A stretch of DNA of 64,000 nucleotides from an uncultured Bacteroidia bacterium (GTDB lineage Bacteria > Bacteroidota > Bacteroidia > Bacteroidales > Prolixibacteraceae), in the NCBI GenBank assembly GCA_903850335.1, contig CAINLJ010000260.1:41021-105020 (forward strand), written 5' to 3'. The notes below the pieces were generated by a model. It ran no database searches. It saw only the letters and a list, made by a program, of their open reading frames with translations, and was not told the origin of the DNA. Of the stretch, positions 4,445 through 63,647 are shown piece by piece. Numbering within the stretch: position 1 is the first letter of the stretch; every line of letters begins with the position of its first letter. The position numbers and the translations under genes are program-made.

Positions 4445-4484
4445 GTAATTAAACAATTTAGGCTGCTGTTAAGTTATTTTAAGT

Positions 4485-5141: not shown

Positions 5142-5176
5142 TACTTGATTTTTTAGATTCTTCAAAATTAAACCTA

Positions 5177-15389: not shown

Positions 15390-15419
15390 GAACTGGAGAA
15401 ATGTAGAGCTTAGTAATCA

Positions 15420-16289: not shown

Positions 16290-16364
16290 TAAAATGATAA
16301 ATTTGATATTAAAGCGGTGTGGGACAGCTGTCCGACTAATTTGTCAGAAAAAAAAGAATTCTTT

Positions 16365-19211: not shown

Positions 19212-19241
19212 GCAAGAAAATACAATTCATTATTATATTAA

Positions 19242-22200
19242 ATGAAACAAATTAAAATCTTAATAGTTCTTACTATTCTTTCAACTGGTCATGGATATAG
19301 TCAAAGACAATCGTTGCCAGGGGAATGGGAGAACAACTTTGTGAATCCGCCGGACTCCGCCAAGCCCTGGGCCTATTGGGTTTGGTTCGCGGGCGGGGGG
19401 CGCTGGTCAAAGGAAGGGGCTACTGCGGATCTGGAAGCGATGAAGCGGGTCGGCATAAACGGAATACTCATCATGGGTAATCCTGCAACCTTGAGTAAGG
19501 AATGGCGCGAGAAATTCAAATACTCAGTTGCAGAAGCAGCCAGGCTTGGGATGGAAGTGACTGCTTATAACGGGCCTGGATGGGCGGGCAGTGGTGGGTC
19601 GTGGATAGGTCCAGAACAATCTTCGCAGAAGTTAGTTTGGACTGAGACGAACATCGAAGGCCCGCAACATTTTGAAGGTGTACTGAAACAGCCCGAGGGT
19701 TTTTCCTGGGGCCCCCCGGACAAAGACACGAAAAAGCAAACAATATACTATCATGACATAGAGGTACTAGCCTTTCCTACACCTGAATACACGGATAGCA
19801 TTCTCAATCTCAAGGAAAAATCCTTGTTTGCACGTGGTTATTGCTCGGGATATGGCGGAGGCGGGATCGCGCTGATCGTGCCGCCGGGCAAATTTCCGGT
19901 GCTGGAACCTGGGACAAACGTTCAATCCGCCCGTCTGGCCGATCTGACGACCAGAATGGACAAGACCGGCCGCCTTGCCTGGGATGTGCCGGCAGGCAAG
20001 TGGACGGTATTGCGATTTGGTTATTGCCCCACGGGCGCGTTGGTCCAGCCAACCAGGGAGGGCCTGGAGTGCGACAAGATGAGCAAAGAGTCACTGGACG
20101 TACATTTTCAGGCACTTATGGCGCAGCTCATCGCCGATGTAGGTCCATTAGCCGGAGCGGGGAAGACACTTGTCGCAGCGCACATCGATAGTTGGGAAGC
20201 TGGTCCGCTGAATTGGACTCCTCTTTTTCGAGAGGAATTCAGGAGACGGCGAGGTTACGATCCCCTCAGGTTCCTGCCTGTCCTTACAAACCGGATACTT
20301 GACAACCTGGATGTTTCAGAGCGGTTCCTGTGGGATTTTCGGCAAACGGTCTCGGACTTGATTGTCGAAAACTATGCAGAACACATGCAGGCACTTGCGG
20401 GACAGCACGGATTGCGCCTTTCTATCGAGGGTTACGATGGTTCGCCATGTGACGATATGACCTATGCGGCGCGCGCAGATGTGCCGATGGGCGAGTTCTG
20501 GTGCGATACCTACCAAACGAAGTACAGTTGCACAGAGATGGCCTCCACTGCCCATGTCTATGGGAAGAAGGTTGTGCAGGCTGAGGCGTTCACTTCAGAA
20601 GACTTCGGACTTACCGGTGGTTGGTATTATCACCCGGCAGCTACAAAATCTTTGGGCGATTGGGCGCTCTGCGAAGGAGTGAATCGCTTTGTGTTTCACA
20701 ATTTCACACATCAACCAGACCTGAAAAATAAGCCTGGTGTCATCTGGTACGGCGTTTATCATCAGCGCAACCAGACCTGGTGGGAATTGTCCACGGCTTA
20801 TCATCGGTATCTTGCCCGTTGCCAATTCCTGTTGCAGCAGGGTCTTTTTGTCGCCGACGTCTGCTACCTGGCACCCGAGGCTTCTCCCCAATATTTTCTC
20901 TCGCCTCAGGACCGGTCGAAATATAACTATGACGGATGTACTGCGGAAGCAGTGTTGACCCGTATGTCTGTAAAAGACGGCCGGCTGGTATTGCCCGATG
21001 GTATGAGTTACAAACTGCTCGTTCTGCCGAAACTGTCCACTATGACACCTTCCCTGCTGCGTAAGATCAAGCAACTCGTGGAGGATGGCGCAACGGTCGT
21101 AGGGCCGAGACCGCTCCGATCGCCCAGTCTTCAGGACTATCCTTTGTGTGACCAGGAACTGAAGTCCCTGGCGGATGACCTGTGGGGGAATTGCGACGGC
21201 AAGACGTTTAAGCAAAGGAGTTTTGGAAAGGGCAAAATCTTGTGGGGGGATGTGGACCTGCCGCTGTATGAGGCGGTTATTTCGCGTTGTTCTCCTTCCT
21301 ACCCTTCTTATGCAGACCTGTATCCGCCGCTATCGTGGCTTCATGCTTGCCTCTCAGGGATGGGAACTCCCCCCGATTTTGCGTCTGGCAGTGGTTTCAA
21401 ATGTATTCACCGGCGGGTCGGCGACATAGACCTGTATTTCGTCGCCAACCCGGATCCCGTCTGGAGGGAGGCTAATTGCACGTTTCGGGTTACGGGCAAG
21501 CAACCGGAGCTATGGAATCCGGTGGCTGGGACTAAACAGAGGCAGATCATGTACCAGGAGAGGGAGGGACTGACGGCACTACCTTTGCGCCTGGAACCGT
21601 CCGGATCGGTCTTTGTAGTCTTTCGTAAACCTATGTCTAATACCATGCCAGTTATTGCTGTGAGCAAGAACGGGCTGAATATCGTGCCTGATCCAACTGT
21701 AACAGCACCCAGCTGGGCATCGATCGGACTACAGCCCGGATCTGGAAACAACGTGGACTTCCTTGGGTGGGAGCCGGGACGTTATGAGTTGACGGCAGCC
21801 AACGGAAAGACTGCAGTGGTTGAATTGAAAGGCATCCCGGCAATGCAAATCACCGGTCCCTGGGAGTTATCTTTCCCAGCCAACTGGGGTGCGCCTGATC
21901 ACCTGACGCTTGACAAACTGATGTCCTGGACCCAACACAACGAATCAGGTGTGAAATACTATTCAGGTACGGCAACCTATCAAAAAATCATCCATGTGCC
22001 ACCGGAGCTGTTGGGCAAGAATCACCGTTTGTGTTTGGATTTGGGCAATGTCCAGGTTATGGCGCAAGTGAAACTTAATGGAGAAGATCTTGGTATTCTC
22101 TGGAATCCGCCATTCCGTACAGACATCACCGCTGCTGTCAAACCGGGTGAAAACGTCCTTGAAATCGTCGTGGCCAATGTGTGGGCGAACCGATTGATTG

Positions 22201-22343
22201 GCGACATGAGCTTGCCGGCAGAGAGGCGCTTTACGCAGGGCGGGGTTAAACTTGAACAGAATGCGCCATTGGCGGAATCAGGATTGCTCGGCCCTGTGCG
22301 AATAGCTATTGGCGAGCGCACTGAGGTGGCATTCAGTAAGTAA
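19242..22343 (+). CDS. GH106-like alpha-L-rhamnosidase (copy 2), GC-rich body
   Basis: FVNPPDSAKPWAYWVWFAGGGRWSKEGATADLEAMKRVGINGILIM; AHIDSWEAGPLNWTPLFREEFRRRRGYDPLRFLPVL; CLDLGNVQVMAQVKLNGEDLGILWNPPFRTDI. Confidence 0.85.
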   Translation: MKQIKILIVLTILSTGHGYSQRQSLPGEWENNFVNPPDSAKPWAYWVWFAGGGRWSKEGATADLEAMKRVGINGILIMGNPATLSKEWREKFKYSVAEAARLGMEVTAYNGPGWAGSGGSWIGPEQSSQKLVWTETNIEGPQHFEGVLKQPEGFSWGPPDKDTKKQTIYYHDIEVLAFPTPEYTDSILNLKEKSLFARGYCSGYGGGGIALIVPPGKFPVLEPGTNVQSARLADLTTRMDKTGRLAWDVPAGKWTVLRFGYCPTGALVQPTREGLECDKMSKESLDVHFQALMAQLIADVGPLAGAGKTLVAAHIDSWEAGPLNWTPLFREEFRRRRGYDPLRFLPVLTNRILDNLDVSERFLWDFRQTVSDLIVENYAEHMQALAGQHGLRLSIEGYDGSPCDDMTYAARADVPMGEFWCDTYQTKYSCTEMASTAHVYGKKVVQAEAFTSEDFGLTGGWYYHPAATKSLGDWALCEGVNRFVFHNFTHQPDLKNKPGVIWYGVYHQRNQTWWELSTAYHRYLARCQFLLQQGLFVADVCYLAPEASPQYFLSPQDRSKYNYDGCTAEAVLTRMSVKDGRLVLPDGMSYKLLVLPKLSTMTPSLLRKIKQLVEDGATVVGPRPLRSPSLQDYPLCDQELKSLADDLWGNCDGKTFKQRSFGKGKILWGDVDLPLYEAVISRCSPSYPSYADLYPPLSWLHACLSGMGTPPDFASGSGFKCIHRRVGDIDLYFVANPDPVWREANCTFRVTGKQPELWNPVAGTKQRQIMYQEREGLTALPLRLEPSGSVFVVFRKPMSNTMPVIAVSKNGLNIVPDPTVTAPSWASIGLQPGSGNNVDFLGWEPGRYELTAANGKTAVVELKGIPAMQITGPWELSFPANWGAPDHLTLDKLMSWTQHNESGVKYYSGTATYQKIIHVPPELLGKNHRLCLDLGNVQVMAQVKLNGEDLGILWNPPFRTDITAAVKPGENVLEIVVANVWANRLIGDMSLPAERRFTQGGVKLEQNAPLAESGLLGPVRIAIGERTEVAFSK

Positions 22344-22390
22344 ATTTTGTTGAAAATCAGTTTCATAATCACTTAATATCAAGAGATATC

Positions 22391-24289
22391 ATGTTACTTC
22401 GTATCCTTTTTTTTGTCATAAGCTCCTTCTCGATGACATTCGCTGCAAGCGCCGCCGACGTGCCGCTGGTAAGGCTTGGCGGTGAAGTAGGTGCGGCGGA
22501 AAGGTCCTCTATCAATCGCTTCCGTTATGTACCCTATGATTCACTACCCTGGATTCGTGCCGATCTCACGGGGGAGATTGCTTCCGAATTTGACGAAGCT
22601 GGCTGGGATCACATCCTGTTCCGCCCGTTCAAAAATTACTCCGGTGACATCTCTGGTCGCTTCATCGAGATCATGGCGATGAACTCCCGTGGCGATTACA
22701 ATGTGCACCCCGCGTTCAAGGCATTGTTGGCGGAGCTGCCAAAGCATCAGCGTCCGGGAGGCTATTTTGCCGCATCCGGCCTGATTGACTGGCTGAAGCC
22801 CATTGATCATAAAGACATTTATAAAAGCACCATGATGCCCGCCTTGTGGGGCAATGCGCGGTTGTTGTGCGGACTGGTGGAGGCAAGCCGGGCGTTCCCG
22901 GATAACCTGCACCTGCTGGTGATGGCACGCAGGCTAGGGGACTTCTATGTCGGCCTTATTCCGCGTTTCGCCGATCAGGCACATATGAGCGAGTACACCA
23001 GCGGTGATACTTATGCAGCAGGATATGTGACGTGTTATTTCCCGGCGATGGAGGGTCTGGTGAAGATGCATACCCTCACCGGTGAGCGGAAGTACCTCGA
23101 AGCCGCCGTCACCATGGCGGCTTTCTACAAACAATTCGACCACCTGCCTATTGACCATGCCCACGGTATGCTTTGTAACCAGGTGTCGCTGTTGATGCTG
23201 TACGAGGCAACCAGGGACGCATCATACCTTGAACGCGTTGAGCAACGCTGGGATGAACTCGTGATAGGCGGCTATATAAATCCAGCAGGTGGCATACTGG
23301 AGAAATGCCAGGTGAAGTTCACACGCGATGAGGGCTGCGCCATTGCCGACTGGCTGCGTCTGAACCTCGCGCTCGGCCGCGTCACAGGTAAGGCGCGGTA
23401 TTGGGAGATGGCAGAACGTACTCTGCATAATCATTTCCTCCAGAATCAGACGTCTAAAGGCGGCTTCGGTCATCGCAATATGCTATGCGACAAGGAAGGC
23501 GTCTATGGCTTTGGGAATTCATCTGAAGAGGCAGTATGGTGTTGTACTTTTCATTGCCAGCTTGGTTTTGTGAATCTGCGTTCGCATGTTATTAACCGTA
23601 GTGAGGTTGATCTTATCTGTAATTTCGCCTTGGATTTCACCGCCAGGTATGCGGATGGAACCTCGGTATCCGAAATACGTCCGGCTGCCGCTGTGGGGGA
23701 GGTGATGCGTCAGCGCATACTCCTTGACGGCCTTCCCGCCATGGTACTGCGAGTGCGACTGCCCTACTGGGCCGACGGGGTTACGGCGGTGGCTAAGGAT
23801 GGCAGTGCTCTGCCACTGGTGACAAAGAATGGTTTCTGCGCCACGACCAGGCCGGTGTCGGAGGCGACCTTCATCTATGCTGGCGGGATTTATGCAGAAG
23901 ACCGGCATTGCAAGCGCCTGCCTGCCGGCCCGGTCACTGGTGAGGCCTGTGTCATCGGTTATGGTCCAAAGCTGTTAGCGGCTCAGGGCCGCACGGCTGC
24001 CGTACCGAGGTGGCCCACTTCCATCGAGGTACTCAAGGCTCTGGGCCTGGCACCATTCTCTGCAACATTGCGCGGCAAGGAATGCTGCTTCGTGAGCGGA
24101 CCTTTGTCGCTTACTGTTTCCGGCAAGACCGTCTGCGGTGCTTCGCCGATTAGTGAGCGGTATACCTATGTCAGCACCGAAAGTTGCACCGGCTTGAACG
24201 CAACAGTGAGCTTTATGCTGGGATACGATTTAGCTGGATTCACATTAAACAGCTTTTACCACCTCATTCCCAACAATTCAATTCAGTGA
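22391..24289 (+). CDS. GH127-superfamily-like (DUF1680-like) putative beta-L-arabinofuranosidase
   Basis: Alpha/alpha-toroid-like ORF: TSGDTYAAGYVTCYFPAMEGLVKMHTLTGERKYLEAAVTMA. Contains E-x-C (TRDEGCAIADW) and C-C (EEAVWCCTFHC), resembling the GH127 Zn/Cys centre pattern (ETC...CC). Confidence 0.65.
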   Translation: MLLRILFFVISSFSMTFAASAADVPLVRLGGEVGAAERSSINRFRYVPYDSLPWIRADLTGEIASEFDEAGWDHILFRPFKNYSGDISGRFIEIMAMNSRGDYNVHPAFKALLAELPKHQRPGGYFAASGLIDWLKPIDHKDIYKSTMMPALWGNARLLCGLVEASRAFPDNLHLLVMARRLGDFYVGLIPRFADQAHMSEYTSGDTYAAGYVTCYFPAMEGLVKMHTLTGERKYLEAAVTMAAFYKQFDHLPIDHAHGMLCNQVSLLMLYEATRDASYLERVEQRWDELVIGGYINPAGGILEKCQVKFTRDEGCAIADWLRLNLALGRVTGKARYWEMAERTLHNHFLQNQTSKGGFGHRNMLCDKEGVYGFGNSSEEAVWCCTFHCQLGFVNLRSHVINRSEVDLICNFALDFTARYADGTSVSEIRPAAAVGEVMRQRILLDGLPAMVLRVRLPYWADGVTAVAKDGSALPLVTKNGFCATTRPVSEATFIYAGGIYAEDRHCKRLPAGPVTGEACVIGYGPKLLAAQGRTAAVPRWPTSIEVLKALGLAPFSATLRGKECCFVSGPLSLTVSGKTVCGASPISERYTYVSTESCTGLNATVSFMLGYDLAGFTLNSFYHLIPNNSIQ

Positions 24290-47702: not shown

Positions 47703-50534
47703 ATGCGCCTGATTTCTTTTATTGTATTAAGCCTGCTGATGTCAGGTGCCTTAATTTCCGCGGAACAAAACAAAAAATCCGGGAAAAATAGTGGCAGCAT
47801 TCAGAATCTATCGGATGAATTCGTCAATCCCCCCATGTCATACCGGCCAGGTGCTTTCTGGTGCTGGCTGAATGGAAATATGTCGGACACATCGATTACC
47901 AGGGATCTGGAGGCCATGAAATCCAAGGGAATGAACAGGGCTGAAATCTGGGATGTGGCAGCCGTTAAAAATCCATCGTTTATTCCGCCGGGAGGGGCAT
48001 TTCTTGGAGACAGATCTGTAAGCCTTATCAAACATGCAATATCCGAAGGGAAAAGATTAAAAATGAGCATTGGCATTGTTGCCTCAAGCGGATGGAATGC
48101 CGGAGGATCATGGGTTACACCCGGTTGGGCATCGAAAAATCTCTTTGTATCGAAAGCTGAAGTAACTGGTCCAAAAGCACTTGCAATTGATCTTCCATTT
48201 CCAAAATTCCCGGAAGGTTGTCCTATGAAGGATCAGAATACCCCCGTCTTCTTCAAGGATGTCGCAGTCCTTGCCGTTCCTTTCAGTGCCGACAGTACCA
48301 TTAGCAGCCTCTCAAATGTGTTGAGTCTGACTCCGTTATTTAAGAATGGCACGTTGAAATGGGAAGTCCCGGCAGGGAAATGGGTAATACTGCGATTCGT
48401 CTGTTCAAACAATGGCCAGAAGTTGATTGTTCCTTCGCCCAATTCAAGTGGCTTGTTTATTGATTTTTTTGACCCTCAGGCCACCATAAAACATTTAAAA
48501 CACTTCATGGACCGGCTTGGTGTAACTCCCGAAAATTCTGCTGAAGCCGGTCTGGCCTATTTTGAATTCGACAGCATGGAACTTGCTGAAGGTACTCCAT
48601 GGACCGACTCATTTCCTGCCATTTTCAAGGAGAGGCAGGGTTATGAAATAGAGAAATACCTACCTGTACTGGCGGGGTGGGACATCAAAAACAGTACTGA
48701 ACAATTCCGTTACGATTTCAAAAGAACAGTCAGCGATCAGCTCATTTACAGCCATTATCATACAGGTAATGAATTTCTTAAGAAGTATAATGCAAAGCTG
48801 GTTTCTGAATCGGGAGGGCCTGGTGCACCGGTTTGGGATACCTGTCCCGTTGACGCCCTAAAGGCACTGGGAAGTGTCTCAGTTCCAAGAGGCGAATTCT
48901 GGATCAAGCACCGGAATATGTTCCTGATCAAGGAGGTGGCAAGTGCCTCACATATTTATGGGAAAGAAATTGTTGATGCTGAGTCGTTTACCACCTGGAG
49001 AAGATGGAAAGATTCGCCGTTCGATTTGAAAAAAGTGGTGGACCGGGCATTTTGCGAAGGACTTAACAATGTTACCTTCCATACTTTTGCAAGCACAAAT
49101 CCTGAAGATGGCCTCCCGGGCAGAACCTATCATGCCGGTTACGACATGAACCCCGGAACAACGTGGTGGGCCAAATCCAAACCCTTTATGGACTATCTTT
49201 CCAGGTGCAGCTACTTGCTTCAGCAAGGGCTATTTGTGGGAGATGTATGTTACTATTATGGCGACCAGACTCCTAACTTCTTTCCGCTATTCCATGATGT
49301 GCCTGAAAAACCCAGGCTCAAAGGCTTAGGGAAAGGTTATGATTACGATGTGATAAACACTGATGTTATTCTGAACAGGATGACTGTTATGGATGGAAGG
49401 CTGGTTCTGCCCGATGGAATGAGTTATGCCATCATGCTTCTGCCAGCGCAGGTTCACATGCCACTGGAAGTATTGAAAAGATTAAGCGAACTGGTAAAAG
49501 GCGGTGCCACCATAGTGGGTCCCCGGCCTGTATCAGTGCCGGGTTTGAAGGATTGGGAAACGGAAAATGTTCTCCTTAATCAATTCTCAGGTGAGTTATG
49601 GGGAGCAGCTGATGGCAAGACTATCTTTATGAATAACTACGGGAAAGGTCGTGTAATTTGGGGTAATTCTGCTGATGAGGTATTGCAGAAAAAACACATC
49701 GAACCAGATTTTTGCTTTACCGGACCTTCCGAAATCGATTACATTCATCGGACAACTGATTTCGGAGAGATCTATTTTTTGAGAAATGACCGTGAAGGGA
49801 CGGTAACTGCGACCTGCCGGTTCCGGGTAAACGGGATGTATCCGGAAATTTGGGATCCTTCAACGGGTACCGTTTCCCGTGTGGCTAATTTTAACAAAGA
49901 GGATGATGGGACAAGTTTTGAGATAAGCCTACCCGCTCACGGTTCCATCTTTGTCGTTTTTGACAAAGATTGTCGTAATAGTCTTAAATTTTATAGCGAC
50001 AACAAGCACGATTCTGCTAAAACTGAAATATCCGGACCCTGGAAGGTTGACTTCCCGCCAAACTGGGGAGCCCCCCCATCGGTCGTATTCGATCGGTTGA
50101 TTTCCTGGACTGAATCGGAAATTCCGGGCATCAAATATTTTTCCGGCACTGCCATTTATCAGAATACATTTAAAGTGGATGCAGGAATGGGCACTAAAGT
50201 ATTAATCCTTGACCTTGGAGGGGTACGCGATTTGGCAGAGGTTTTTATTAATGGGAAATCTGCCGGAATATTATGGAAAAAACCTTATCGGACAGATATC
50301 AGTCAATTGGTTAAAACAGGCGAGAATGATCTAAAAATTGAACTGGTGAACTTATGGGTTAACCGTATGACGGGTGATATGTTATCAGATCCTAAAGACC
50401 GGTACTGCAAAACAAATCAGACATTTATAAAATCAGAAGTGTGGCCTGGCGGAGATGAACCGTTCAGGCTTCAGACGGCCGGGCTGTTGGGACCGGTTAC
50501 ATTAACTGAAAAATGGGGAAATGAGGGGCGATAA
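47703..50534 (+). CDS. GH106-like alpha-L-rhamnosidase (copy 3)
   Basis: FVNPPMSYRPGAFWCWLNGNMSDTSITRDLEAMKSKGMNRAEIWDV; FEFDSMELAEGTPWTDSFPAIFKERQGYEIEKYLPVLAG; SESGGPGAPVWDTCPVDALKALGS; C-terminal ILDLGGVRDLAEVFINGKSAGILWKKPYRTDI. Confidence 0.83.
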   Translation: MRLISFIVLSLLMSGALISAEQNKKSGKNSGSIQNLSDEFVNPPMSYRPGAFWCWLNGNMSDTSITRDLEAMKSKGMNRAEIWDVAAVKNPSFIPPGGAFLGDRSVSLIKHAISEGKRLKMSIGIVASSGWNAGGSWVTPGWASKNLFVSKAEVTGPKALAIDLPFPKFPEGCPMKDQNTPVFFKDVAVLAVPFSADSTISSLSNVLSLTPLFKNGTLKWEVPAGKWVILRFVCSNNGQKLIVPSPNSSGLFIDFFDPQATIKHLKHFMDRLGVTPENSAEAGLAYFEFDSMELAEGTPWTDSFPAIFKERQGYEIEKYLPVLAGWDIKNSTEQFRYDFKRTVSDQLIYSHYHTGNEFLKKYNAKLVSESGGPGAPVWDTCPVDALKALGSVSVPRGEFWIKHRNMFLIKEVASASHIYGKEIVDAESFTTWRRWKDSPFDLKKVVDRAFCEGLNNVTFHTFASTNPEDGLPGRTYHAGYDMNPGTTWWAKSKPFMDYLSRCSYLLQQGLFVGDVCYYYGDQTPNFFPLFHDVPEKPRLKGLGKGYDYDVINTDVILNRMTVMDGRLVLPDGMSYAIMLLPAQVHMPLEVLKRLSELVKGGATIVGPRPVSVPGLKDWETENVLLNQFSGELWGAADGKTIFMNNYGKGRVIWGNSADEVLQKKHIEPDFCFTGPSEIDYIHRTTDFGEIYFLRNDREGTVTATCRFRVNGMYPEIWDPSTGTVSRVANFNKEDDGTSFEISLPAHGSIFVVFDKDCRNSLKFYSDNKHDSAKTEISGPWKVDFPPNWGAPPSVVFDRLISWTESEIPGIKYFSGTAIYQNTFKVDAGMGTKVLILDLGGVRDLAEVFINGKSAGILWKKPYRTDISQLVKTGENDLKIELVNLWVNRMTGDMLSDPKDRYCKTNQTFIKSEVWPGGDEPFRLQTAGLLGPVTLTEKWGNEGR

Positions 50535-50737: not shown

Positions 50738-52789
50738 ATGCACTCTTTAATCAGATATCTGGCCTGCCTGGCAATTTTAGTGATTACCGGTTGCGCAAAC
50801 AACGGATCAGAAAAATCCAACAAGTCATTTATCAATGATGAATCCATACGGATGGTTCAGGATCAAATAACTAAAAAACCAGGACAACAAAGCAGTGAAC
50901 TGATAATAAAAGGTACTGCTCAACTGGCAAAAAACTGGAGATCGTCTGACGGGTCAAATAAGGATTATGTCCAATTCTGTCTCTCCAACTTTTTGGTACC
51001 TTCAGATCTCAAGCCTAATTTTCAAAGGATTTTGAAAAACCTGGAGAACCAAAACGGATATATAGCAAAGATTCGTTTCAGCATCAGTGAATCTGAAAGC
51101 TTCACTGATGTCAAAGAAGAAAAAGTTGATCTGTTTTTCAGAAAATCGATTCCCGAAGCGAATATTTATAAGGAAAAGTTTGCTTTTTTTATCCAGCTCA
51201 ATTTCCCATTTTATACCCTTGATGAAAAAAGAAAAAACGGGAAGAACTGGGATCGGGAAAAATGGGCGATGGTGCGGCTTGGTGATTTATATGCAGAAAG
51301 ACAAGATTCTGATTTCAAGCCTGATGCAGTTGATGAGGTTAAAGCATTTGAGAAATACATTGGGAAATACTTCTTCCGAATGGATCATATCTCACTGCCT
51401 GACGGAACCTATCCATTTGGCAAACCGTTGACTCTTCACAGCCATTTCGGCTTAAGAGATAATCTGAAGGAGGAATATACCAGGCCGGGAGGATTGCCAA
51501 GGCAGGAAATAACCGGTAAACTTATTGAACATATTAACGTCGGGACTGTTCCGGTTGATTTTATTGAGGACAGCACTACGAGATGGAATCCCTGGACCAA
51601 CCAACTGTTTAAGGTTGACAGTGGAAGGTTGAAAGAAGTCGAAATCAAAACAGAGGGAACAAAAAGATATGCTGGATTATTAGCAGAGTTTAAGAAAAAA
51701 AGTTCGGTCGATCGCTTCTACCCCAACGGATCAACCTACTCAAAAAGAACATTCGACAATGCCAACCTTACATCTGGAGAAGTTGAAACACTCATCAGGA
51801 ATTTCTTGTCAGATCCTGTAATTGCATCAGTGGGAAAACTTATTTCCAGGAGACTGGGCCGGTCTTTGCAGCCATTTGATATCTGGTACAGCGGGTTTCA
51901 GGCACAATCTGCCTTTCCTGCAAGCATGCTCGATTCTATTACAAGATTAAAGTATCCTGATCCGGGTGCCCTGCAAAAAGATCTTCCATTTATACTTATG
52001 AGAATGGGTTTCAGGGAACCCGAAGCAGAATATATAGGAAATCATGCTATAGTCCGGCCTATCGCAGCGGGAGGATATTCTGATCAGCCGCCCATGAGAG
52101 GTGATACTGCAATAATGACCACCGTATTTAATCGCCACGGGCTCGATTTTAAAGCCTTCAGAATTGCTATGCATGAACTCGGTCACGTGGTTTGTGGTGT
52201 CTATACAACGAAATACATCGATCATTTTATTCTGGCTGATGTACCAACCAGCGGTATTACAGAAGGAATAGCTGAATTGCTGGCTTATAAAAATACAGAA
52301 GGGCTTGGATTAGTTCAGCAAAGTTTTGAAAAGCAGAAGGAAATGCTCTCCCTGGCCGCTTTATGGTATCTTGTAGATATTGGAGGACAGTCACTAACTG
52401 AAATTGAGACCTGGAAATGGATGTACCTTCATCCCAAAGCAACAGCCGCTGAATTGCAAACTGCCGTTATGAATATTAGCGGAGAGATCTGGAATAAATA
52501 TTATGCCTCCATATTTGGGGGCATAAAGGATCAGCACATCCTCTCAGTCTATAATCACTTTATAACCGGGAGTTTGTACCTTTTCAACTATTTTATTGGT
52601 GATGTTGTCATGTTTCAGCTGTATAATGCCTATATGCCCGGAAACCTGGGCGACGGTTTGAAAAACGCTTGTCTCGAAGGACAGACATTACCTGAATTAT
52701 GGATGTTGCATGCTGTCGGAGATAAAATATCCTTAAAGCCATTAATGGAAACAGCTCAAAAGGCAATTAATAACTTTAATAATTTATAA
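50738..52789 (+). CDS. Lipoprotein with HELGH zinc-metallopeptidase motif; family unknown
   Basis: Lipobox LVITGCANN; FKAFRIAMHELGHVVCGVYTTKYIDHFILADVPTSGITEGIAELLAYKNTEGLG gives HExxH with a downstream Glu-rich segment. Confidence 0.7.
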   Translation: MHSLIRYLACLAILVITGCANNGSEKSNKSFINDESIRMVQDQITKKPGQQSSELIIKGTAQLAKNWRSSDGSNKDYVQFCLSNFLVPSDLKPNFQRILKNLENQNGYIAKIRFSISESESFTDVKEEKVDLFFRKSIPEANIYKEKFAFFIQLNFPFYTLDEKRKNGKNWDREKWAMVRLGDLYAERQDSDFKPDAVDEVKAFEKYIGKYFFRMDHISLPDGTYPFGKPLTLHSHFGLRDNLKEEYTRPGGLPRQEITGKLIEHINVGTVPVDFIEDSTTRWNPWTNQLFKVDSGRLKEVEIKTEGTKRYAGLLAEFKKKSSVDRFYPNGSTYSKRTFDNANLTSGEVETLIRNFLSDPVIASVGKLISRRLGRSLQPFDIWYSGFQAQSAFPASMLDSITRLKYPDPGALQKDLPFILMRMGFREPEAEYIGNHAIVRPIAAGGYSDQPPMRGDTAIMTTVFNRHGLDFKAFRIAMHELGHVVCGVYTTKYIDHFILADVPTSGITEGIAELLAYKNTEGLGLVQQSFEKQKEMLSLAALWYLVDIGGQSLTEIETWKWMYLHPKATAAELQTAVMNISGEIWNKYYASIFGGIKDQHILSVYNHFITGSLYLFNYFIGDVVMFQLYNAYMPGNLGDGLKNACLEGQTLPELWMLHAVGDKISLKPLMETAQKAINNFNNL

Positions 52790-54843: not shown

Positions 54844-56382
54844 ATGAACGGCAAATTCAAATTGTTCATATGCTTTGTGCTGAGTGGAACTTCCGGAGAA
54901 TGCGTTCTTCATAAGAAAGAAGATTTCCGCCAGCAACCGAACATAATCGTTTTTCTCGCTGACGATCTGGGATATGGTGACCTTGCATGCTATGGAAATC
55001 CAATCATTAAAACACCCAATATTGACAAACTTTCCAGCGAAGGTGTTCTCCTGACAGATTGCCATTCAGGTGGCACCGTTTGCTCTCCCTCCCGGGCGGC
55101 ATTACTGACGGGCAGGAATCCATACAGAAGTGGATTTTATACAATTTTGGGCGGAACTACCTATCTGGATTCTAAGGAAGTGACCATCCCCGAGGCCCTC
55201 AGGACTAGGGGATATGAGAGTTGTTTTGTTGGGAAATGGCATTTATCTGTTCTCGAAAAGGATAAAAAAAATGAACCTGGTCCGGGAGATCAGGGATTTG
55301 ATTACTGGATGGGGACAACGCATAACGCTTTTGACGGACCGGCCAATACTAAGAAATTTATCAGAAATGGCGTTCCTGTTGGACAAGTCAATGGCTGGTA
55401 TTGCGATGTGATAGTCGATGAGGCCGGAAAATGGTTAAAGGAAAAGAGAGATAAAACGAAGCCTTTCTTTCTTTATGTAGCATCTCATGAACCACACACA
55501 CCGATTTCGTCCCCGAAAAAGTACAGCGATATGTATAATTCGGATAAGACAGATTCCCTCGAAAAAACAATAAATTATGGGTATGTCAGAAGACCTGAAA
55601 GAGATATTTCAGCCAATAAAAAGGAATATTATGGGACTGTTAGCCAGCTTGACAACGCTTTTGGAAGATTGCTTCATACCATCGACAGTTTAGGTCTGCG
55701 GGAGAATACCATTATTTTTTTCACAAGCGATAACGGACCAGAGTCACCGGTGACAGCAGATGAATCTCGGGGTGAATGGGATGATCAGCTAAGGGACAAA
55801 TGTTTTGGTTCTCCAGGCATTTACAGGGGAATGAAAAGATACGTCTACGAAGGGGGACATCGGGTACCGGGAATTGTCAGGTATCCTGGTATCATCCCTC
55901 CCGGGACAAAAAGTAGTGAATTATTTGATGGCACAGATCTGTTTCCAACCATCTGTAATATAGTTGGAATTCCATTACCCAAAGGTGTAAATTACGATGG
56001 CTTTGCAAACTTAAATGCATTTCTAAACAAAAAAACAGACAGGGAAATTCCCAACATCTGGTTTTATCCTCATTACGAAGATACCGACTCCAGGCTTCCT
56101 GAGATGGAGATGCGATCAGGCGATTACGCGCTTATCGGATGGTTGCCACCGAAGTCAGACTCCATCAAACCAGACAACTGGTTTTTCAAATATGGACCGG
56201 TAAAATATGAATTGTATGATTTGAGCAGCGACCCCGGTCAGCAGAAGGATCTGTCCGGGGAAAAACCTGAAATTGTAAGTTCAATGGCAGGTGGAATGAG
56301 AAAATTATGGGTGGAGATGAGGGATGAAGGGAAAAGAGCTCACCTTTTACCAAATCAGGCATATTCTGGCGGACATAAATAA
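54844..56382 (+). CDS. S1-type (formylglycine-dependent) sulfatase
   Basis: PNIIVFLADDLGYGDLACYGNPIIKTPNIDKLSSEGVLLTDCHSGGTVCSPSRAALLTGR (CxPxR); CFVGKWHLS; FTSDNGPES. Confidence 0.93.
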   Translation: MNGKFKLFICFVLSGTSGECVLHKKEDFRQQPNIIVFLADDLGYGDLACYGNPIIKTPNIDKLSSEGVLLTDCHSGGTVCSPSRAALLTGRNPYRSGFYTILGGTTYLDSKEVTIPEALRTRGYESCFVGKWHLSVLEKDKKNEPGPGDQGFDYWMGTTHNAFDGPANTKKFIRNGVPVGQVNGWYCDVIVDEAGKWLKEKRDKTKPFFLYVASHEPHTPISSPKKYSDMYNSDKTDSLEKTINYGYVRRPERDISANKKEYYGTVSQLDNAFGRLLHTIDSLGLRENTIIFFTSDNGPESPVTADESRGEWDDQLRDKCFGSPGIYRGMKRYVYEGGHRVPGIVRYPGIIPPGTKSSELFDGTDLFPTICNIVGIPLPKGVNYDGFANLNAFLNKKTDREIPNIWFYPHYEDTDSRLPEMEMRSGDYALIGWLPPKSDSIKPDNWFFKYGPVKYELYDLSSDPGQQKDLSGEKPEIVSSMAGGMRKLWVEMRDEGKRAHLLPNQAYSGGHK

Positions 56383-56396
56383 AAAGTAATTATCAA

Positions 56397-58805
56397 ATGA
56401 AGATTCAAAAAAAGCTTCTGTATTTTGTATTTCTGATATGTTCTGTGAATCAGGTTTTTTCTCAAACTTCCGGTAAAATATTCCCGGGGGCAGACGAGAA
56501 AACCCCGTCGAGGTCCGAGTACTTTTCATGGATCAATAATACCGGAGAAGGTTCCACTGAAAATCAAACGATAACCAACCTCGAATTTTTCAAATGGCTT
56601 CACGATGAATACGGGATGGTCCTCGATATCTACGCTTTTGACGCAGGGAACATTGATAATAAGGAATTTCGTAACTCTGGTAGTAAAAGCAAGTTTGAGA
56701 TTCAATTTCCTCACGGATATGAGCCAATGACGAAAAAGGCTGCAGAAATGGGAACCAGATTAGGGATATGGGATGCCCCTGATAAATTTGGTAAGACGCC
56801 GGACGATGAAGAAAAGAGAACAGAGAATATGGTTTCGTTATGTCGTGACTACCATTTTGAACTGTTCAAATTTGATGCGATGGGTGGTGACCTCAGGGAT
56901 GAAAAGCAGGAGGCATTTATTCGTATGATGACTGCTTGCCGTAATTATAGCCCCGATCTGATTCTTTTAAACCACCGGATAAATCTTGGAAAAGAGGCAG
57001 TAAAACATGCAACAACCTGGTTGCTGGGAGGTGATGAGACATACGTCGATGTACATATGCCCAATTTTCAGACAGCACCTCATCACAGGGCCGGGGCACT
57101 CTCCAGAGAATTGGTTCCTGATCTGCAGCGCCTGACCGAGGATCACGGGGTTTGTTTATCTTCCTGCCTCGATTATTGGGAGGATGACCTGGTCCTCCAG
57201 GCTTTCAATCGGAACCTTATCCTTGCACCTGAGATCTATGGAAATCCCTGGTTCTTACGTGATGATGAATATCCGCGCCTGGCGCGAATATTTAACCTGA
57301 CCCGAAAGTATAAAGAGATTCTTGTTAACGGGATTACACTTCCCGAAGAAAAATACGGAGATAAGGCTGTTTCGCGGGGGGACAACAAAACCCGGCTAAT
57401 CACTATGAGAAACCTGACCTGGGAGCCTGTGATCAGAACCATTAGGCTGGATGGTGAAATGGGACTGTCACAAGGCTCCGCTTTTGAACTCAGACAACTT
57501 CATCCAGTGGAAAGAGTCTTGGGCCATTTCAAAAAGGGGCAGACAGTGAATTTAGAAATTCTTCCATTCCGCTCATGTTTGCTTCTGGCAACCTCTGAAA
57601 AACAGAAGGAAACAATTATTGAAGGTTGCGACTACGAAATTGTCAGGGATATTGCCGGGAAACCTGTAAAGATCAATTTGCTTGCTTTTCCCGGGGAGAA
57701 GAAAAAAATAGTTCTGAGCAAGGCAAACGATGGCTTTAGAATGGCTAGCCTGGATGGTCAACCTTTGAATGAACTACTTAAAAGCGCTGTAGTTGAAATC
57801 AGTTTTCCCGGAAACCCCCTAAAAGAAAAATACCACCGAAAATTGAGTGATCCGGAGCCGGTTCCTGTACCACCGGATGCTGAAAGCCTCTATGAAGCTA
57901 CCTGTTTCGCAGCCGACAACAATGCTCTTGAAGCGCGTTCTCTGATCCGTTCCGGGCCAACCGCTATTCCTCAGGTTCAGAAAGCACGTGATGCCTTTTT
58001 CGGACAGGAACTCTTCGTCAGCCGTGGGCTTTGGGATCGTTACATGTTCGACGGAGACCCGAATACCTCATTTTATCCCAGTCGGAGGCAAGGAAGAAAA
58101 GAATTCAGAATAAATGGAGGATCGCTCCGGCTGGATTTTGGCAAACTGACTGCCCTGGACAGCCTTAAGATCATTGTTGGCGATGAACAGGCCCTTCAAC
58201 CCTTCAAATCATGGGAAGAGATTAATGTTGAAGTCTCTCCTGACGTAAAGACCTGGACACAACTCCCGGTATTGGCAGGTAAAGAGATAGAATTATCACT
58301 GAATCGGAGAAAGCCCATCCAGTATTTGCGATTCCCCGGTACCTTTGAAAAGGTTACTGAAATAGTTGGATACCTGAACGGCCAGACTGTAGACAGAACG
58401 CTTTGGCGGGCATCAAACCTATTCAGTCCGTACAGAATGGTTACTGCTAAAAAGGCATTCGAGAGTAGCTTTGTTCTGAATGAAATCCCCAATGGAAGTT
58501 ACCTCGCCATTGCACTTAATGGCCGGCATGGCAATGAAGGTGCATACGCAGCCATTCGTGTGAATGGTAAACTTGTTGGAGCACCCGACAGAAGTATTTC
58601 ATACAGAAGCAATGCATGGGAATATCCGGTTCCAATGAGCGACTCAAACTATACCTATTATTTCCCACTGACAGAGGAAATGAAAGGTGTCCAGATAGAG
58701 GCGGTAATCCTCGTAATGAAGGAGGGAGTGGCGGAATTTAAGCCTGAGGTATGGATAACAGCATATCCGATCCCCTATGAAAAGAAAGAATTGATACTTA
58801 ACTGA
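56397..58805 (+). CDS. Putative glycoside hydrolase with GH36/27-like barrel and C-terminal discoidin-like region
   Basis: WLHDEYGMVLDIYAFDAGNID; RLGIWDAPDKFG; CRDYHFELFKFDAMGGDLRDEKQEAFIRMM; C-terminal YMFDGDPNTSFYPSRRQG...LDFGKLTALDSLKIIVG. Exact family not recognised. Confidence 0.6.
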   Translation: MKIQKKLLYFVFLICSVNQVFSQTSGKIFPGADEKTPSRSEYFSWINNTGEGSTENQTITNLEFFKWLHDEYGMVLDIYAFDAGNIDNKEFRNSGSKSKFEIQFPHGYEPMTKKAAEMGTRLGIWDAPDKFGKTPDDEEKRTENMVSLCRDYHFELFKFDAMGGDLRDEKQEAFIRMMTACRNYSPDLILLNHRINLGKEAVKHATTWLLGGDETYVDVHMPNFQTAPHHRAGALSRELVPDLQRLTEDHGVCLSSCLDYWEDDLVLQAFNRNLILAPEIYGNPWFLRDDEYPRLARIFNLTRKYKEILVNGITLPEEKYGDKAVSRGDNKTRLITMRNLTWEPVIRTIRLDGEMGLSQGSAFELRQLHPVERVLGHFKKGQTVNLEILPFRSCLLLATSEKQKETIIEGCDYEIVRDIAGKPVKINLLAFPGEKKKIVLSKANDGFRMASLDGQPLNELLKSAVVEISFPGNPLKEKYHRKLSDPEPVPVPPDAESLYEATCFAADNNALEARSLIRSGPTAIPQVQKARDAFFGQELFVSRGLWDRYMFDGDPNTSFYPSRRQGRKEFRINGGSLRLDFGKLTALDSLKIIVGDEQALQPFKSWEEINVEVSPDVKTWTQLPVLAGKEIELSLNRRKPIQYLRFPGTFEKVTEIVGYLNGQTVDRTLWRASNLFSPYRMVTAKKAFESSFVLNEIPNGSYLAIALNGRHGNEGAYAAIRVNGKLVGAPDRSISYRSNAWEYPVPMSDSNYTYYFPLTEEMKGVQIEAVILVMKEGVAEFKPEVWITAYPIPYEKKELILN

Positions 58806-58829: not shown

Positions 58830-61800
58830 ATGAAAATATTTATAGCTTTTATTCTCTTATTCTTTTTTACGCAACTTATCGTTGCTCAGAAGATTGATGT
58901 GTATCAGCGTCCGGTTCAGCATGAACGGCCAAGGGATTTTGATGCTCTCCATTACAGGATCTCGCTGAATATAGATATGAATAGCAAGAGCCTTACAGGA
59001 GAGAATCGGATTTCCCTGGTGCCTCTCAATGATAATTTTGATAAATGTGTTCTCGATGCTGAATACCTGGTTGTAAGTCACGTAACCAATGAAAAAGGGG
59101 AAGAGTTCTCTTTTGATCAGAAAGAAAAGCAGATTTTTATCGGCATGCCTAAAACTTATAACCATGCTGATACGATTATTTTTACAGTAAAATATTCGCT
59201 CAACAAGCCTGTTGCGGGTTTGCTCTTCATCGATGAGAAATCTACAAATCCCCAAATGGTATCTTCCGACTGCTGGCCTGATAAAGCCAGACAATGGATC
59301 CCCTGCTACGACTACCCCAACGATAAGGCAACTAATGAAATGATTGTCACGGTAGACAAGAAGTATAAAGTATTGTCAAATGGCAGACTGGTAGGTGTTA
59401 AAGAAAATAGTCTTCAAGGGACTAAGACCTATCATTGGAGCCAGGAACTTCCCCATTCAACTTACCTCATTAACCTGAGCATTGCAGATTACGCAGTAAT
59501 TAAGGATTCTTTAAGATCACTTCCAGTAAATTACTGGGTGTACAAAGGTCTTGAAAATGAGGCAAAGACCACCTTCCGAAAAACGCCTTATATGATCAGT
59601 TTCTACAATAAGTTATTCTGCTATGACTATCCATGGGCTAAATATGACCAGGTCATTACATCATACATGGGTGGAGGGGCTGAAGCGACTACGGCCACAT
59701 TACTCGGTGAAGGAATTGTAATGGACACGTTAGCAGAAAAGGATTTTTCCAGGGAGGGAGTTATTGCCCATGAAATAGCCCATCAGTGGTGGGGAGATCT
59801 GATTACCCTAAGAAGTTGGGAACATAATTGGCTGAATGAAAGTTTTGCAACTTATTCCGACTACTTATACACCAGGTACGATAAGGGTGAAGATGCCGGA
59901 GCCTTTGACCTGCTTGGTAAAAAAAATCAATACCTGAATGAGGCCCATAACAAATATCTGCGGCCAATTGTATTTAACAGGTTTAACGGACCAGCTGATA
60001 ACTTCGACAGCCATGCATATCCCAAAGGTGCATGTATGTTACACCTTCTGCGCCATATCCTCGGAGATGAAACTTTTTTTAGGATATTAAGTACATTTCT
60101 GCATCAGAATGCTTTTAGGCCGGTGGATACCTATGACCTTATGAAGGCAGTCAAAGAAGTGAGCGGTAAAAATATGGATTGGTTCTTTGAGCAGTTTATC
60201 TTCAGTCCAGGTCATCCGGTTTTTGAAGTCAGCAAGTCCTGGAATGCGACCACAAAAAAGTTAACACTCACAATTCTTCAAAAACAGGATTCAATACCAG
60301 GAGTACCGATATACACCATACCCGTTAATCTTGGCTTTGTTTTTCCTGGTAAGAAAAATACAAAAGAAGTCTGGCTCAAAGATAAATCTACAACTCTTGA
60401 ATTCGATTTTGACTCGGAACCTTTGCTCGTAAGATTCGATGAGGGAAATTTTCTTCTTAAAGAGTGCAGGTTTAAAAAAGCACTTCAGGAATTGTTATAC
60501 CAGGCAGGCAATGACGATATGATCGGCCGGTTGACAGCACTAAAAGAACTTGAACCTTACAGCTGCGAAAGGGCTGTTCTTTTGTTGTGGACAAATCTTG
60601 CCACACAGGATAATTTCTGGGCAGTCCGGCAGGCTGCCCTGGAAAACGTAGGCAAATACAATTGTCAGAATGGTATCGAATTGTTCAAGGCATGCCTCAG
60701 GGATAAGAATTCAAAAGTAAGGAGGTCTGCGGTAAAGATCCTTGGCGAATTGAAGGATCCACGATTTATCAGGCTGTTTAAAGAAATGTTCAAGGCAGAA
60801 AACAGTTATGCTGTCCAGGCAGAATTGGTGAAATCTATTGGCAAATGCGGTGGCCAGCAACAATTGCGATTCCTAAAAAATGCCGAAGCCATAAAATCTT
60901 ACGGCAATGTTGTTAGCAAAGCTTCAACTGAAGCCATCAGTTCGATAACAAAGAAATTAGCTCCCCCAAACATTATTTTAATCGTTACGGATGATCAGCG
61001 TTGGGATATGTTGGGTTGTGCAGGGAACAATATTATTCAAACTCCAAATATTGATAATCTGGCAAACCATGGTGTCCGGTTTACGCATGCTTTTGTTACC
61101 ACACCGATCTGTGCTGCAAGCCGAGCCAGTATTATTACAGGATTATTTGAGCGAACCCACGAATACACTTTTAATAAACCACCTGTAAAAAAAGCCTTCA
61201 CAGATAAAAGTTATCCGTATCTACTCAGGCAGGCTGGTTATCGTACCGGATTTGTGGGGAAATTTGGTGTTAAAACGGAAGATGCCATTGATAGTTTATT
61301 TTCGTGGAGTAAGATAAATGGATTTCCATACTGGAATATAGTAGATGGGAAAAAGAAGCATCTTACAGATATTCAGGGAGAGCAGGCTATTCAGTTTATT
61401 AGGGAATCAACTCCCGGGAAACCATTCTGCCTTTCACTAAGTTTCAGTGCACCGCATGCCGATGATGATTCAAAGGAGCAATATTTCTGGCCCCAATCTT
61501 TGGATAGTTTATATCAGAACGCAGTCATTCCGGTACCAGCAACTGCTGATCCTGCATTTTACGAAGCACTTCCAGAATTTCTGAAAGGAACTATGAATCG
61601 CGAACGCTGGTATTGGCGTTTTAACACCCCTGAGAGATTTCAGCAATACACCAAAGGATATTATCGGATGATTACCGGAATCGATCAGGTTGTTGAGAAA
61701 ATCCGCAAAGAATTAGACGTGCTTAAAATTGCCGGGAATACAGTCATACTTTTGATGGGAGATAATGGTTATTACATTGGAGACAGAGGGTATGCCGATA

Positions 61801-62261
61801 AATGGCTGATGCATGATGTCTCCATCCGCGTGCCCCTCGTCTTCTATGACCCCCGAAGATCAGGTTCTTATAGCAAGGTTTTAAATCAGATGGTGTTGAA
61901 TGTTGATGTTTCGCCTACAATTATGGATCTTTCTGGTATCCCCGTTCCCACGAATATACAGGGTAAAAGCCTGTTACCATTGATTTCAGGGGCTCAGGCA
62001 AAATGGAGGAGTTCAATTTTCTGTGAACATCTGATGAATGAGCCAAGGATTCCGAATAGTGAATGCATCAGGACGGAAGAATGGAAATTTATACGCTATC
62101 CTAAACATCCTGAATATGTTGAATTATACGATCTTAAAAATGATCCCTGGGAGGAACACAACCTGGCCGGAAATCCTCAGTTTGAAAATCAGATTATAAA
62201 ATACCAAAAACAATGCGATTTTAAAATTAAAGAATTAATAAGAGCCAGAGTTAAGAAATAA
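58830..62261 (+). CDS. Fusion protein: M1 family aminopeptidase + HEAT-like repeats + sulfatase
   Basis: M1: GGGAEATTATLLGEG and HEIAHQWWGDLITLRSWEHNWLNES (HEXXH-X18-E). HEAT-like: NFWAVRQAALENVGKY, NSKVRRSAVKILGELKDPRFI. Sulfatase: PPNIILIVTDDQRWDMLGCAGNNIIQTPNIDNLANHGVRFTHAFVTTPICAASRASIITG (CxAxR) and LLMGDNGYYIGDRG. No stop or frame break. Confidence 0.9.
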   Translation: MKIFIAFILLFFFTQLIVAQKIDVYQRPVQHERPRDFDALHYRISLNIDMNSKSLTGENRISLVPLNDNFDKCVLDAEYLVVSHVTNEKGEEFSFDQKEKQIFIGMPKTYNHADTIIFTVKYSLNKPVAGLLFIDEKSTNPQMVSSDCWPDKARQWIPCYDYPNDKATNEMIVTVDKKYKVLSNGRLVGVKENSLQGTKTYHWSQELPHSTYLINLSIADYAVIKDSLRSLPVNYWVYKGLENEAKTTFRKTPYMISFYNKLFCYDYPWAKYDQVITSYMGGGAEATTATLLGEGIVMDTLAEKDFSREGVIAHEIAHQWWGDLITLRSWEHNWLNESFATYSDYLYTRYDKGEDAGAFDLLGKKNQYLNEAHNKYLRPIVFNRFNGPADNFDSHAYPKGACMLHLLRHILGDETFFRILSTFLHQNAFRPVDTYDLMKAVKEVSGKNMDWFFEQFIFSPGHPVFEVSKSWNATTKKLTLTILQKQDSIPGVPIYTIPVNLGFVFPGKKNTKEVWLKDKSTTLEFDFDSEPLLVRFDEGNFLLKECRFKKALQELLYQAGNDDMIGRLTALKELEPYSCERAVLLLWTNLATQDNFWAVRQAALENVGKYNCQNGIELFKACLRDKNSKVRRSAVKILGELKDPRFIRLFKEMFKAENSYAVQAELVKSIGKCGGQQQLRFLKNAEAIKSYGNVVSKASTEAISSITKKLAPPNIILIVTDDQRWDMLGCAGNNIIQTPNIDNLANHGVRFTHAFVTTPICAASRASIITGLFERTHEYTFNKPPVKKAFTDKSYPYLLRQAGYRTGFVGKFGVKTEDAIDSLFSWSKINGFPYWNIVDGKKKHLTDIQGEQAIQFIRESTPGKPFCLSLSFSAPHADDDSKEQYFWPQSLDSLYQNAVIPVPATADPAFYEALPEFLKGTMNRERWYWRFNTPERFQQYTKGYYRMITGIDQVVEKIRKELDVLKIAGNTVILLMGDNGYYIGDRGYADKWLMHDVSIRVPLVFYDPRRSGSYSKVLNQMVLNVDVSPTIMDLSGIPVPTNIQGKSLLPLISGAQAKWRSSIFCEHLMNEPRIPNSECIRTEEWKFIRYPKHPEYVELYDLKNDPWEEHNLAGNPQFENQIIKYQKQCDFKIKELIRARVKK

Positions 62262-62414: not shown

Positions 62415-63647
62415 ATGAGATTGAAAGACTACAGACATACTACCATCAGTAAAAACTTATTGAGTAAGCATAATAAATCATGCATTTTACATACCATATG
62501 GGAGAATAAAGGAATTTCAAGAGTTGAGATTGCCCGTAACACCAATTTGAGTACTGCAACCGTCTCCCGACTAGTCGATTCTCTAATCAAAAATGACAAG
62601 TTATTGGAAGAGCGCGAAACTATCGCTATTTCTAAAGGTCGCCCAATGAAATCACTTTATTTTGGAAATAATGAGCGATTTATTATTGGAATTGATATTG
62701 GAACAACCTTCATAAGAGGTATGCTTACCAATATGAATGCTGAACCAATTAAAGAGATTGAAGTCGTTACTGAATCATTAAGAGAACCTGAATATGTTTT
62801 AAATAAGGTCGTTGACATGATAGACCGTCTTTCGAATACCAGTATGGTCAAGAGAGATCAGATTATCGGTGTAGGAATAGCTGTAGCCGGAACTGTTAAC
62901 CTTGAGAAAGGGATTGTTGTATACTCCCCTGCTTTTAACTGGCGGAACGTTCAGTTTTACGATTACATACAAAGCCGTATTAATTTGCCCCTTTTCTTCG
63001 ATAATGTCAACCGGGTTATGGCACTTGGTGAGTTAACATTTGGAAAGGGTAATGAATATGATAATATGATTTGCATTAACGTTGGTTACGGGATCGGTGC
63101 CGGGATTATTATCAATAAAAAACTTTTTTATGGTACAGACGGTATGGCCGGAGAATTTGGTCATGTTCCGGTTGCCGGCGACAACCTTATCATTTGTGCC
63201 TGCGGAAATAAGAATTGCCTGACCGCCTATTCATCAGGGGATTCCATTGCCCAAAGAGTCAGACTTTTGATGAGGGAAAAGTCATCGGAAATATTAATGA
63301 AATTATGCAATAGTAAACCAGAAGACCTGACGGCTAAAATTGTAGGAGAAGCTTTTCGCCTGAATGATCCAATTGCACGGCAAGTGTTTCAACAAGCCAT
63401 TTTCTACCTCGGACAATCCATAGCAGGACTTATTAATACCTTTAATCCGCAGGTCGTTTTTATTGGTGGTGGCGTGCCCCAAAGCGGTGATATTTTCTGG
63501 GAGCCCCTTAAAGAGATCGTAAATGAAAATGTCTTTGACAGGCTTTCAACAAAATATCAAATACTACCTGTCACTTTTCTTGACAGGGCTGCGATTTATG
63601 GCGCAATTGGCCTGGTGATTAAGGAAATTCTCAATATGGATATATAA
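62415..63647 (+). CDS. ROK family transcriptional regulator with N-terminal HTH (copy 2)
   Basis: HTH SRVEIARNTNLSTATVSRLVDSLIKNDKLL; IIGIDIGTTFIRGMLTNMNAEP; GEFGHVPVAGDNLIICACGNKNCLTAYSSGD. Paralogous to 30212-31432. Confidence 0.9.
   Translation: MRLKDYRHTTISKNLLSKHNKSCILHTIWENKGISRVEIARNTNLSTATVSRLVDSLIKNDKLLEERETIAISKGRPMKSLYFGNNERFIIGIDIGTTFIRGMLTNMNAEPIKEIEVVTESLREPEYVLNKVVDMIDRLSNTSMVKRDQIIGVGIAVAGTVNLEKGIVVYSPAFNWRNVQFYDYIQSRINLPLFFDNVNRVMALGELTFGKGNEYDNMICINVGYGIGAGIIINKKLFYGTDGMAGEFGHVPVAGDNLIICACGNKNCLTAYSSGDSIAQRVRLLMREKSSEILMKLCNSKPEDLTAKIVGEAFRLNDPIARQVFQQAIFYLGQSIAGLINTFNPQVVFIGGGVPQSGDIFWEPLKEIVNENVFDRLSTKYQILPVTFLDRAAIYGAIGLVIKEILNMDI

Follow-up and report, generated by a model that had tools for sequence, protein, structure and literature searches.

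The locus examined here is part of a 64,000-nt stretch of DNA from contig CAINLJ010000260.1 (hereafter, the window) and contains an open reading frame (ORF) of 1143 codons in which, as assembled, an M1 aminopeptidase with C-terminal HEAT repeats is joined to an S1_25-like sulfatase. The parts of this ORF and the adjacent genes are the following:

54844..56382, + strand: second, only distantly related sulfatase of this gene run; nearest among solved structures, 3ED4 (arylsulfatase)
56397..58805, + strand: secreted 802-aa protein directly upstream of the fusion ORF; no Pfam, NCBIfam or convincing PDB match
58830..62261, + strand: M1 aminopeptidase-HEAT/S1_25-like sulfatase fusion ORF, 1143 aa (ORF and Pfam)
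58830..58889, + strand: signal peptide-like N-terminal stretch MKIFIAFILLFFFTQLIVAQ (sequence read by eye)
58947..59468, + strand: Peptidase_M1_N, residues 40-213 (PF17900, E 7e-27)
59577..60197, + strand: Peptidase_M1 catalytic domain, residues 250-456 (PF01433, E 1.5e-41)
60588..60956, + strand: HEAT-repeat C-terminal part of the aminopeptidase, approximately residues 587-709 (PF13646 and alignment with stand-alone orthologues)
60957..60962, + strand: fusion junction, L710-A711 (comparison with contig C476 of G015, the closest relative, from the same genus)
60963..62258, + strand: S1_25-like sulfatase, residues 712-1143 (PF00884, E 1.8e-44; SGSH_C; 6HR5, E 3.5e-123)
62415..63647, + strand: ROK-family regulator/kinase adjoining the fusion; an 84% identical orthologue follows the separate sulfatase gene in G015

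The frame is free of internal stop codons, in agreement with the first-pass annotation of this DNA, which had described it as continuous, and the two remaining frames contain many stops around the junction. The Pfam domains are arranged in the order M1_N, M1, HEAT_2, Sulfatase and SGSH_C, all above the cut-offs (E values from 1e-12 to 1e-44), with HEAT_2 matching residues 587-670, Sulfatase residues 713-1037 and SGSH_C residues 984-1127. Sulfatase homology begins around residue 711-712 (nt 60960-60963), only a few nucleotides from the start near nt 60958 that was originally proposed. The N-terminal stretch MKIFIAFILLFFFTQLIVAQ, which resembles the N-termini of the aligned stand-alone M1-HEAT orthologues, is the sole signal-like segment of the protein, with none ahead of the sulfatase half, as had also been noted at the outset; the fusion protein would most likely be exported by this aminopeptidase signal peptide, with the periplasm as the predicted location. 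Given that no methionine is present between residues 653 and 727, the latter being located beyond the TDD metal ligands, separate ATG-initiated translation of an active sulfatase is unlikely.

The aminopeptidase half retains the HExxH-x18-E zinc spacing of the M1 family (H314, E315, H318 and E337), and the zinc site HEIAH...NE reported in the first-pass annotation is indeed intact. Further landmarks of the catalytic domain are Y397 and a variant GGGAE at residues 281-285, and the Pfam scores exceed the respective cut-offs (95 bits against 25.8 for PF17900 and 142.8 against 27.7 for PF01433). The GXMEN exopeptidase motif reads GGGAEA, with the Glu retained and the Met and Asn replaced, and this variant is common to all aligned stand-alone M1-HEAT orthologues. 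Aminopeptidase activity of this half is predicted through homology: the M1 N-terminal and catalytic domains match those of 1Z1W (tricorn-interacting factor F3), 3CIA (cold-active aminopeptidase) and leukotriene A4 hydrolase (E ~1e-25 to 3e-33), whereas the C-terminal region bears no sequence similarity to these solved enzymes and their GAMEN-type motif is replaced by GGGAEA in the M1-HEAT family of the window.

Residues 1-709, including the HEAT part, align end to end with stand-alone secreted proteins of about 710 aa that are found in Bacteroidota, Gemmatimonadota and other groups, with identities of 75% for G015, 67% for a second relative (G082), 65% for a Kiruna MAG and 47-58% for many others. 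These stand-alone aminopeptidases (706-720 aa; G015, G082, UBA9300, Cecembia rubra and Gemmatimonadota; 47-75% identity) share the zinc site and the HEAT C-terminus with the window protein, but none has a sulfatase attached. Judging from these alignments, proteins of this aminopeptidase family normally consist of M1 plus HEAT, and this part of the architecture is no fusion. Thus, the HEAT-like segment recognized in the first-pass annotation is present but belongs to the aminopeptidase instead of being an added module, and the novelty is confined to a single junction, at nt 60957-60962.

The sulfatase half contains the motifs TDD (720-722), CAASR (761-765), GKFGV (810), PHADD (875), DNG (978) and DKWLM (990), of which TDD and DNG belong to the metal site, and matches PF00884 with 152.7 bits against a cut-off of 25. 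The formylglycine signature C/S-x-P/A-x-R is satisfied by C761-A-A-S-R765, identical in 6HR5, so the CAASR motif had been correctly read as intact, and the genome of the window encodes a Cys-type sulfatase maturase (TIGR03942, 528 bits; cut-off 349). Residues 711-1143 are 74% identical to the stand-alone sulfatase of G015, 52-56% identical to other stand-alone sulfatases and approximately 50% identical to the sulfatase part of 1120-1240-aa proteins that are common in the family of the window. Among solved structures, the nearest by far is 6HR5 (P36_S1_25 of Formosa agariphila), with E 3.5e-123 over 418 residues and 2.2e-55 for the next match, and by this solved relative the domain is putatively placed in S1_25.

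P36_S1_25 is an exo-3-sulfo-L-rhamnose sulfatase (PMC8511951, PMC9096561) that desulfates the non-reducing-end Rha3S of ulvan oligosaccharides, after which the GH78 module of P36 removes the rhamnose (PMC8511951); another S1_25 enzyme is given as an exo-3-sulfo-L-fucose sulfatase (PMC9096561). By this relationship, the substrate of the window sulfatase is probably the 3-O-sulfate of terminal L-rhamnose or L-fucose. A proteoglycan or sulfated glycopeptide had been envisaged previously; a rhamnose or fucose sulfate fits this type of sulfatase better than a generic proteoglycan. P36 and the window protein have the same sulfatase type, and both are multimodular secreted proteins in which desulfation would be combined with a second hydrolytic activity. 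However, the partner in P36 is a rhamnosidase, whereas in the window it is an aminopeptidase, with no rhamnosidase or GH78 domain detected in the ORF by Pfam; the sulfatase forms the C-terminal half of the window protein, where it no longer has a signal peptide of its own, but is N-terminal in the sulfatase-GH78 relative that we scanned (L045); and consecutive action on a single substrate has been demonstrated for P36 (PMC8511951) but would be hypothetical for the window fusion. S1_25-type sulfatase frames of 1120-1240 aa (L045, 6052-9585, - strand; L046, 9866-13456, + strand) have similar counterparts in many genomes of the family; these were considered as further M1 fusions, and the one scanned, L045, proved to be a sulfatase-GH78 protein with the layout of P36.

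In G015, each half has a gene of its own, and the two genes share a strand of contig C476: the M1-HEAT gene (3857-6001, + strand, 714 aa) is 75% identical to the window half and the sulfatase orthologue (19839-21317, + strand, 492 aa) is 74% identical. The 13.8 kb between these genes is filled by an inverted SusC/SusD-sulfatase block that encodes, on the minus strand and in this order, a sulfatase, a small lipoprotein with a BT_3987-like domain, SusD, and SusC-like, SusD-like and SusC-like proteins (the first three named from Pfam, the remainder from similarity and size). The G015 sulfatase gene is followed by the ROK orthologue, and in the window the order is fusion, then ROK. The junction DNA of the window reads ACA AAG AAA TTA GCT CCC CCA AAC ATT, and the G015 counterparts are ...AAA AAA TAG closing the M1-HEAT gene and ...TCA AGT CTG CCT AAC ATT within the mature sulfatase. 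All of M1-HEAT is kept up to and including the K709 codon, the point at which the G015 gene terminates, and the sulfatase is re-entered two to three residues ahead of its first conserved strand, PN(I/V); the fusion has neither the aminopeptidase stop nor the signal peptide of the sulfatase, nor any intergenic DNA. A loss of DNA from between linked, same-strand genes for secreted enzymes would explain these absences, and the separate same-strand genes of G015 support the earlier suggestion of a deletion-driven fusion of neighbouring secreted-protein genes. As to loss of the 13.8-kb block in the genome of the window versus its gain in G015, the two genes were linked in none of the outgroup loci examined.

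Searches for homologs with the same architecture, as recommended in the first-pass annotation, returned none. With the whole protein as the query, no second full-length match was found outside the genome of the window among 140 genomes of the family, 393 of the order and an earlier set of relatives, and a junction-spanning query detected no fused copy in 396 genomes of the phylum, for a total of approximately 1,036 genomes (one per species; the sets may overlap). No fused relative was among the best 80 loci when GTDB r220 species genomes were scanned by pattern, the junction search in viral contigs yielded nothing, and no peptidase-sulfatase fusion was found in the open-licence literature; the initial remark that this combination is not known as a described enzyme thus holds in both genome and literature searches. 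UBA9300, which matched the whole query, was dismissed as a second fused copy because it carries two genes with a stop between them and the neighbouring sulfatase is unrelated (25% identical). A fragment in the Desulfobacteraceae-named MAG Umea1_bin-2529 (L074, 3645-4098) ends at the contig edge and is uninformative on the fusion; it is 92% identical to M1 residues 412-489 and joined to unrelated sequence, and this contig is probably chimeric or misbinned and derived from a near relative of the window's species. The fusion is known from a single draft assembly of 284 contigs.

The two halves are equally diverged from G015 (pN, 0.143 and 0.147; pS, 0.76 and 0.77, respectively); pN/pS proportions and relative-rate tests were used in place of dN/dS, which was not computable because synonymous sites are saturated. 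In relative-rate tests with three outgroups per half, the window branch displayed no significant acceleration (chi-square 0.0-2.5). No decay is visible in either half, and most of the divergence from G015 may predate the fusion; due to the synonymous saturation, selection after the fusion is inseparable from selection before it. The architecture is absent from the relatives, which the first-pass annotation would have counted against the fusion if accompanied by loss of activity, but neither half carries a sequence sign of such a loss. The junction DNA occurs once in the assembly, and both flanks are in the expected company, the left flank (the 802-aa gene) matching G082, where the orthologue (69%) is encoded near M24 and M1-HEAT, and the right flank (ROK) matching G015. 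The AlphaFold2 model of the whole fusion, which is of low confidence (mean pLDDT 63, pTM 0.44), suggests that the last HEAT helix (691-708) enters the first sulfatase strand (714-720) within six residues.

The surroundings of the fusion are rich in rhamnosidases. Glycosidases encoded in the window include three GH106, one GH78-type, one GH127 and one GH95 enzymes as well as GH31, and an M24 aminopeptidase P is encoded there too. The GH78-type, the three GH106 and the GH127 genes are located at 13167-24289 and 47703-50534 and make up a rhamnose/arabinose-targeting locus. In most of the relatives inspected, M24 (aminopeptidase P type) adjoins M1-HEAT, and the two form a conserved pair across Bacteroidota and Gemmatimonadota (seven loci); a sulfatase adjoins M1-HEAT in G128 and UBA9300. 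Together with the second sulfatase, these surroundings suggest breakdown of a sulfated cell-wall material of plants or algae that is rich in rhamnose and may be glycoprotein. In lake and lagoon Latescibacteria genomes, GH127, sulfatases and M24-type peptidases have been tied, by annotation only, to algal cell-wall polymers including hydroxyproline-rich glycoproteins (PMC4454575).

We favour, with moderate confidence, a genuine lineage-specific fusion that yields a bifunctional exported exo-enzyme, with both activities serving the same class of material. Under this scenario, a stand-alone secreted M1-HEAT gene and an S1_25-type sulfatase gene, initially linked on the same strand, would have been joined by loss of the stretch from the aminopeptidase stop through the sulfatase signal peptide, and the resulting single polypeptide would be exported via the aminopeptidase signal peptide and would most likely reside in the periplasm. 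Its zinc aminopeptidase half would trim N-terminal amino acids off oligopeptides, and the sulfatase, with C761 converted to formylglycine by the radical-SAM maturase of the genome, would take off sulfate, probably the 3-O-sulfate of terminal L-rhamnose or L-fucose, letting the rhamnosidases encoded nearby act. Most likely, each enzyme works as it does when alone, and the fusion would ensure that both activities are co-produced and co-localised, with sulfated rhamnose- or fucose-bearing glycoprotein or cell-wall debris as the shared target class; action of both halves on the same molecule is not required.

It is a real, if minor, possibility that the fusion is incidental, that is, a transient single-lineage state produced by a recent deletion, in which the domains work independently and the linkage confers no benefit. 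The presence of the fusion in one genome of approximately 1,036 and its absence from the best 80 loci of the GTDB scan, the retention of both genes apart in G015, and the practically linker-free junction, as expected of an accidental join, are all compatible with such an event; however, the halves are joined in frame at a domain boundary, the sulfatase, devoid of its own signal peptide, would depend on the fusion for export, and neither half appears decayed, although these three features also fit chance and survival. An assembly or binning artefact, with the genes separate in the organism and the contig misjoined or the intervening block dropped, appears highly improbable. The assembly is a fragmented draft, the halves are 13.8 kb apart in the nearest relative, and the junction AAATTAG is one base off the terminal AAATAG of that relative, but the junction sequence occurs nowhere else in the assembly, has no repeat to bridge it, and is in frame at a domain edge. 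Furthermore, the SusC of the G015 block has no close copy elsewhere in the genome of the window (best 35%) and its sulfatase has none at E 1e-60, so that the block is not merely misplaced, and because the sulfatase signal peptide is missing as well, a one-base error could not restore two normal genes.

Distinctly unlikely, in our view, is the tighter coupling envisaged in the first-pass annotation, in which glycan desulfation and amino-acid removal would take place on one sulfated glycopeptide. Peptidase and sulfatase genes recur around M1-HEAT in Bacteroidota (G128 and UBA9300), the M24 association extends to Gemmatimonadota, and the GH127, GH95 and GH106 enzymes of the window are as compatible with cell-wall glycoprotein of plants or algae as with polysaccharide. 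However, S1_25 enzymes act on free oligosaccharide ends and M1 enzymes on free peptide N-termini, nothing indicates that both ends are on one molecule, and the S1_25 enzymes of relatives are fused to a rhamnosidase, a pairing that couples directly. We are equally doubtful that this protein is the first enzyme to couple peptide-end trimming with sugar desulfation in one chain for the removal of glycopeptides bearing sulfated rhamnose or fucose, with selection maintaining the fusion.

The single-lineage fusion is, then, probably a functional bifunctional exo-enzyme, and it is a new domain pairing from two well-known enzyme families, but not an enzyme of a new kind. With it, the partners known for S1_25 sulfatases come to include a peptidase, and it offers a clear case of fusion, apparently by loss of DNA between linked genes for secreted enzymes, with the unfused state surviving in the same genus. 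Should the activities be coupled, this would suggest that sulfated glycoproteins serve these bacteria as a nutrient and are broken down as a unit.

Additionally, window positions 50738-52789 (+ strand) encode a 683-aa protein that resembles a lipoprotein and contains HELGH (FRIAMHELGHVV), a motif like that of zinc peptidases. This protein had no Pfam or NCBIfam match and no convincing match to PDB sequences, and may be a metallopeptidase not yet described; its gene belongs to the same run as the fusion.
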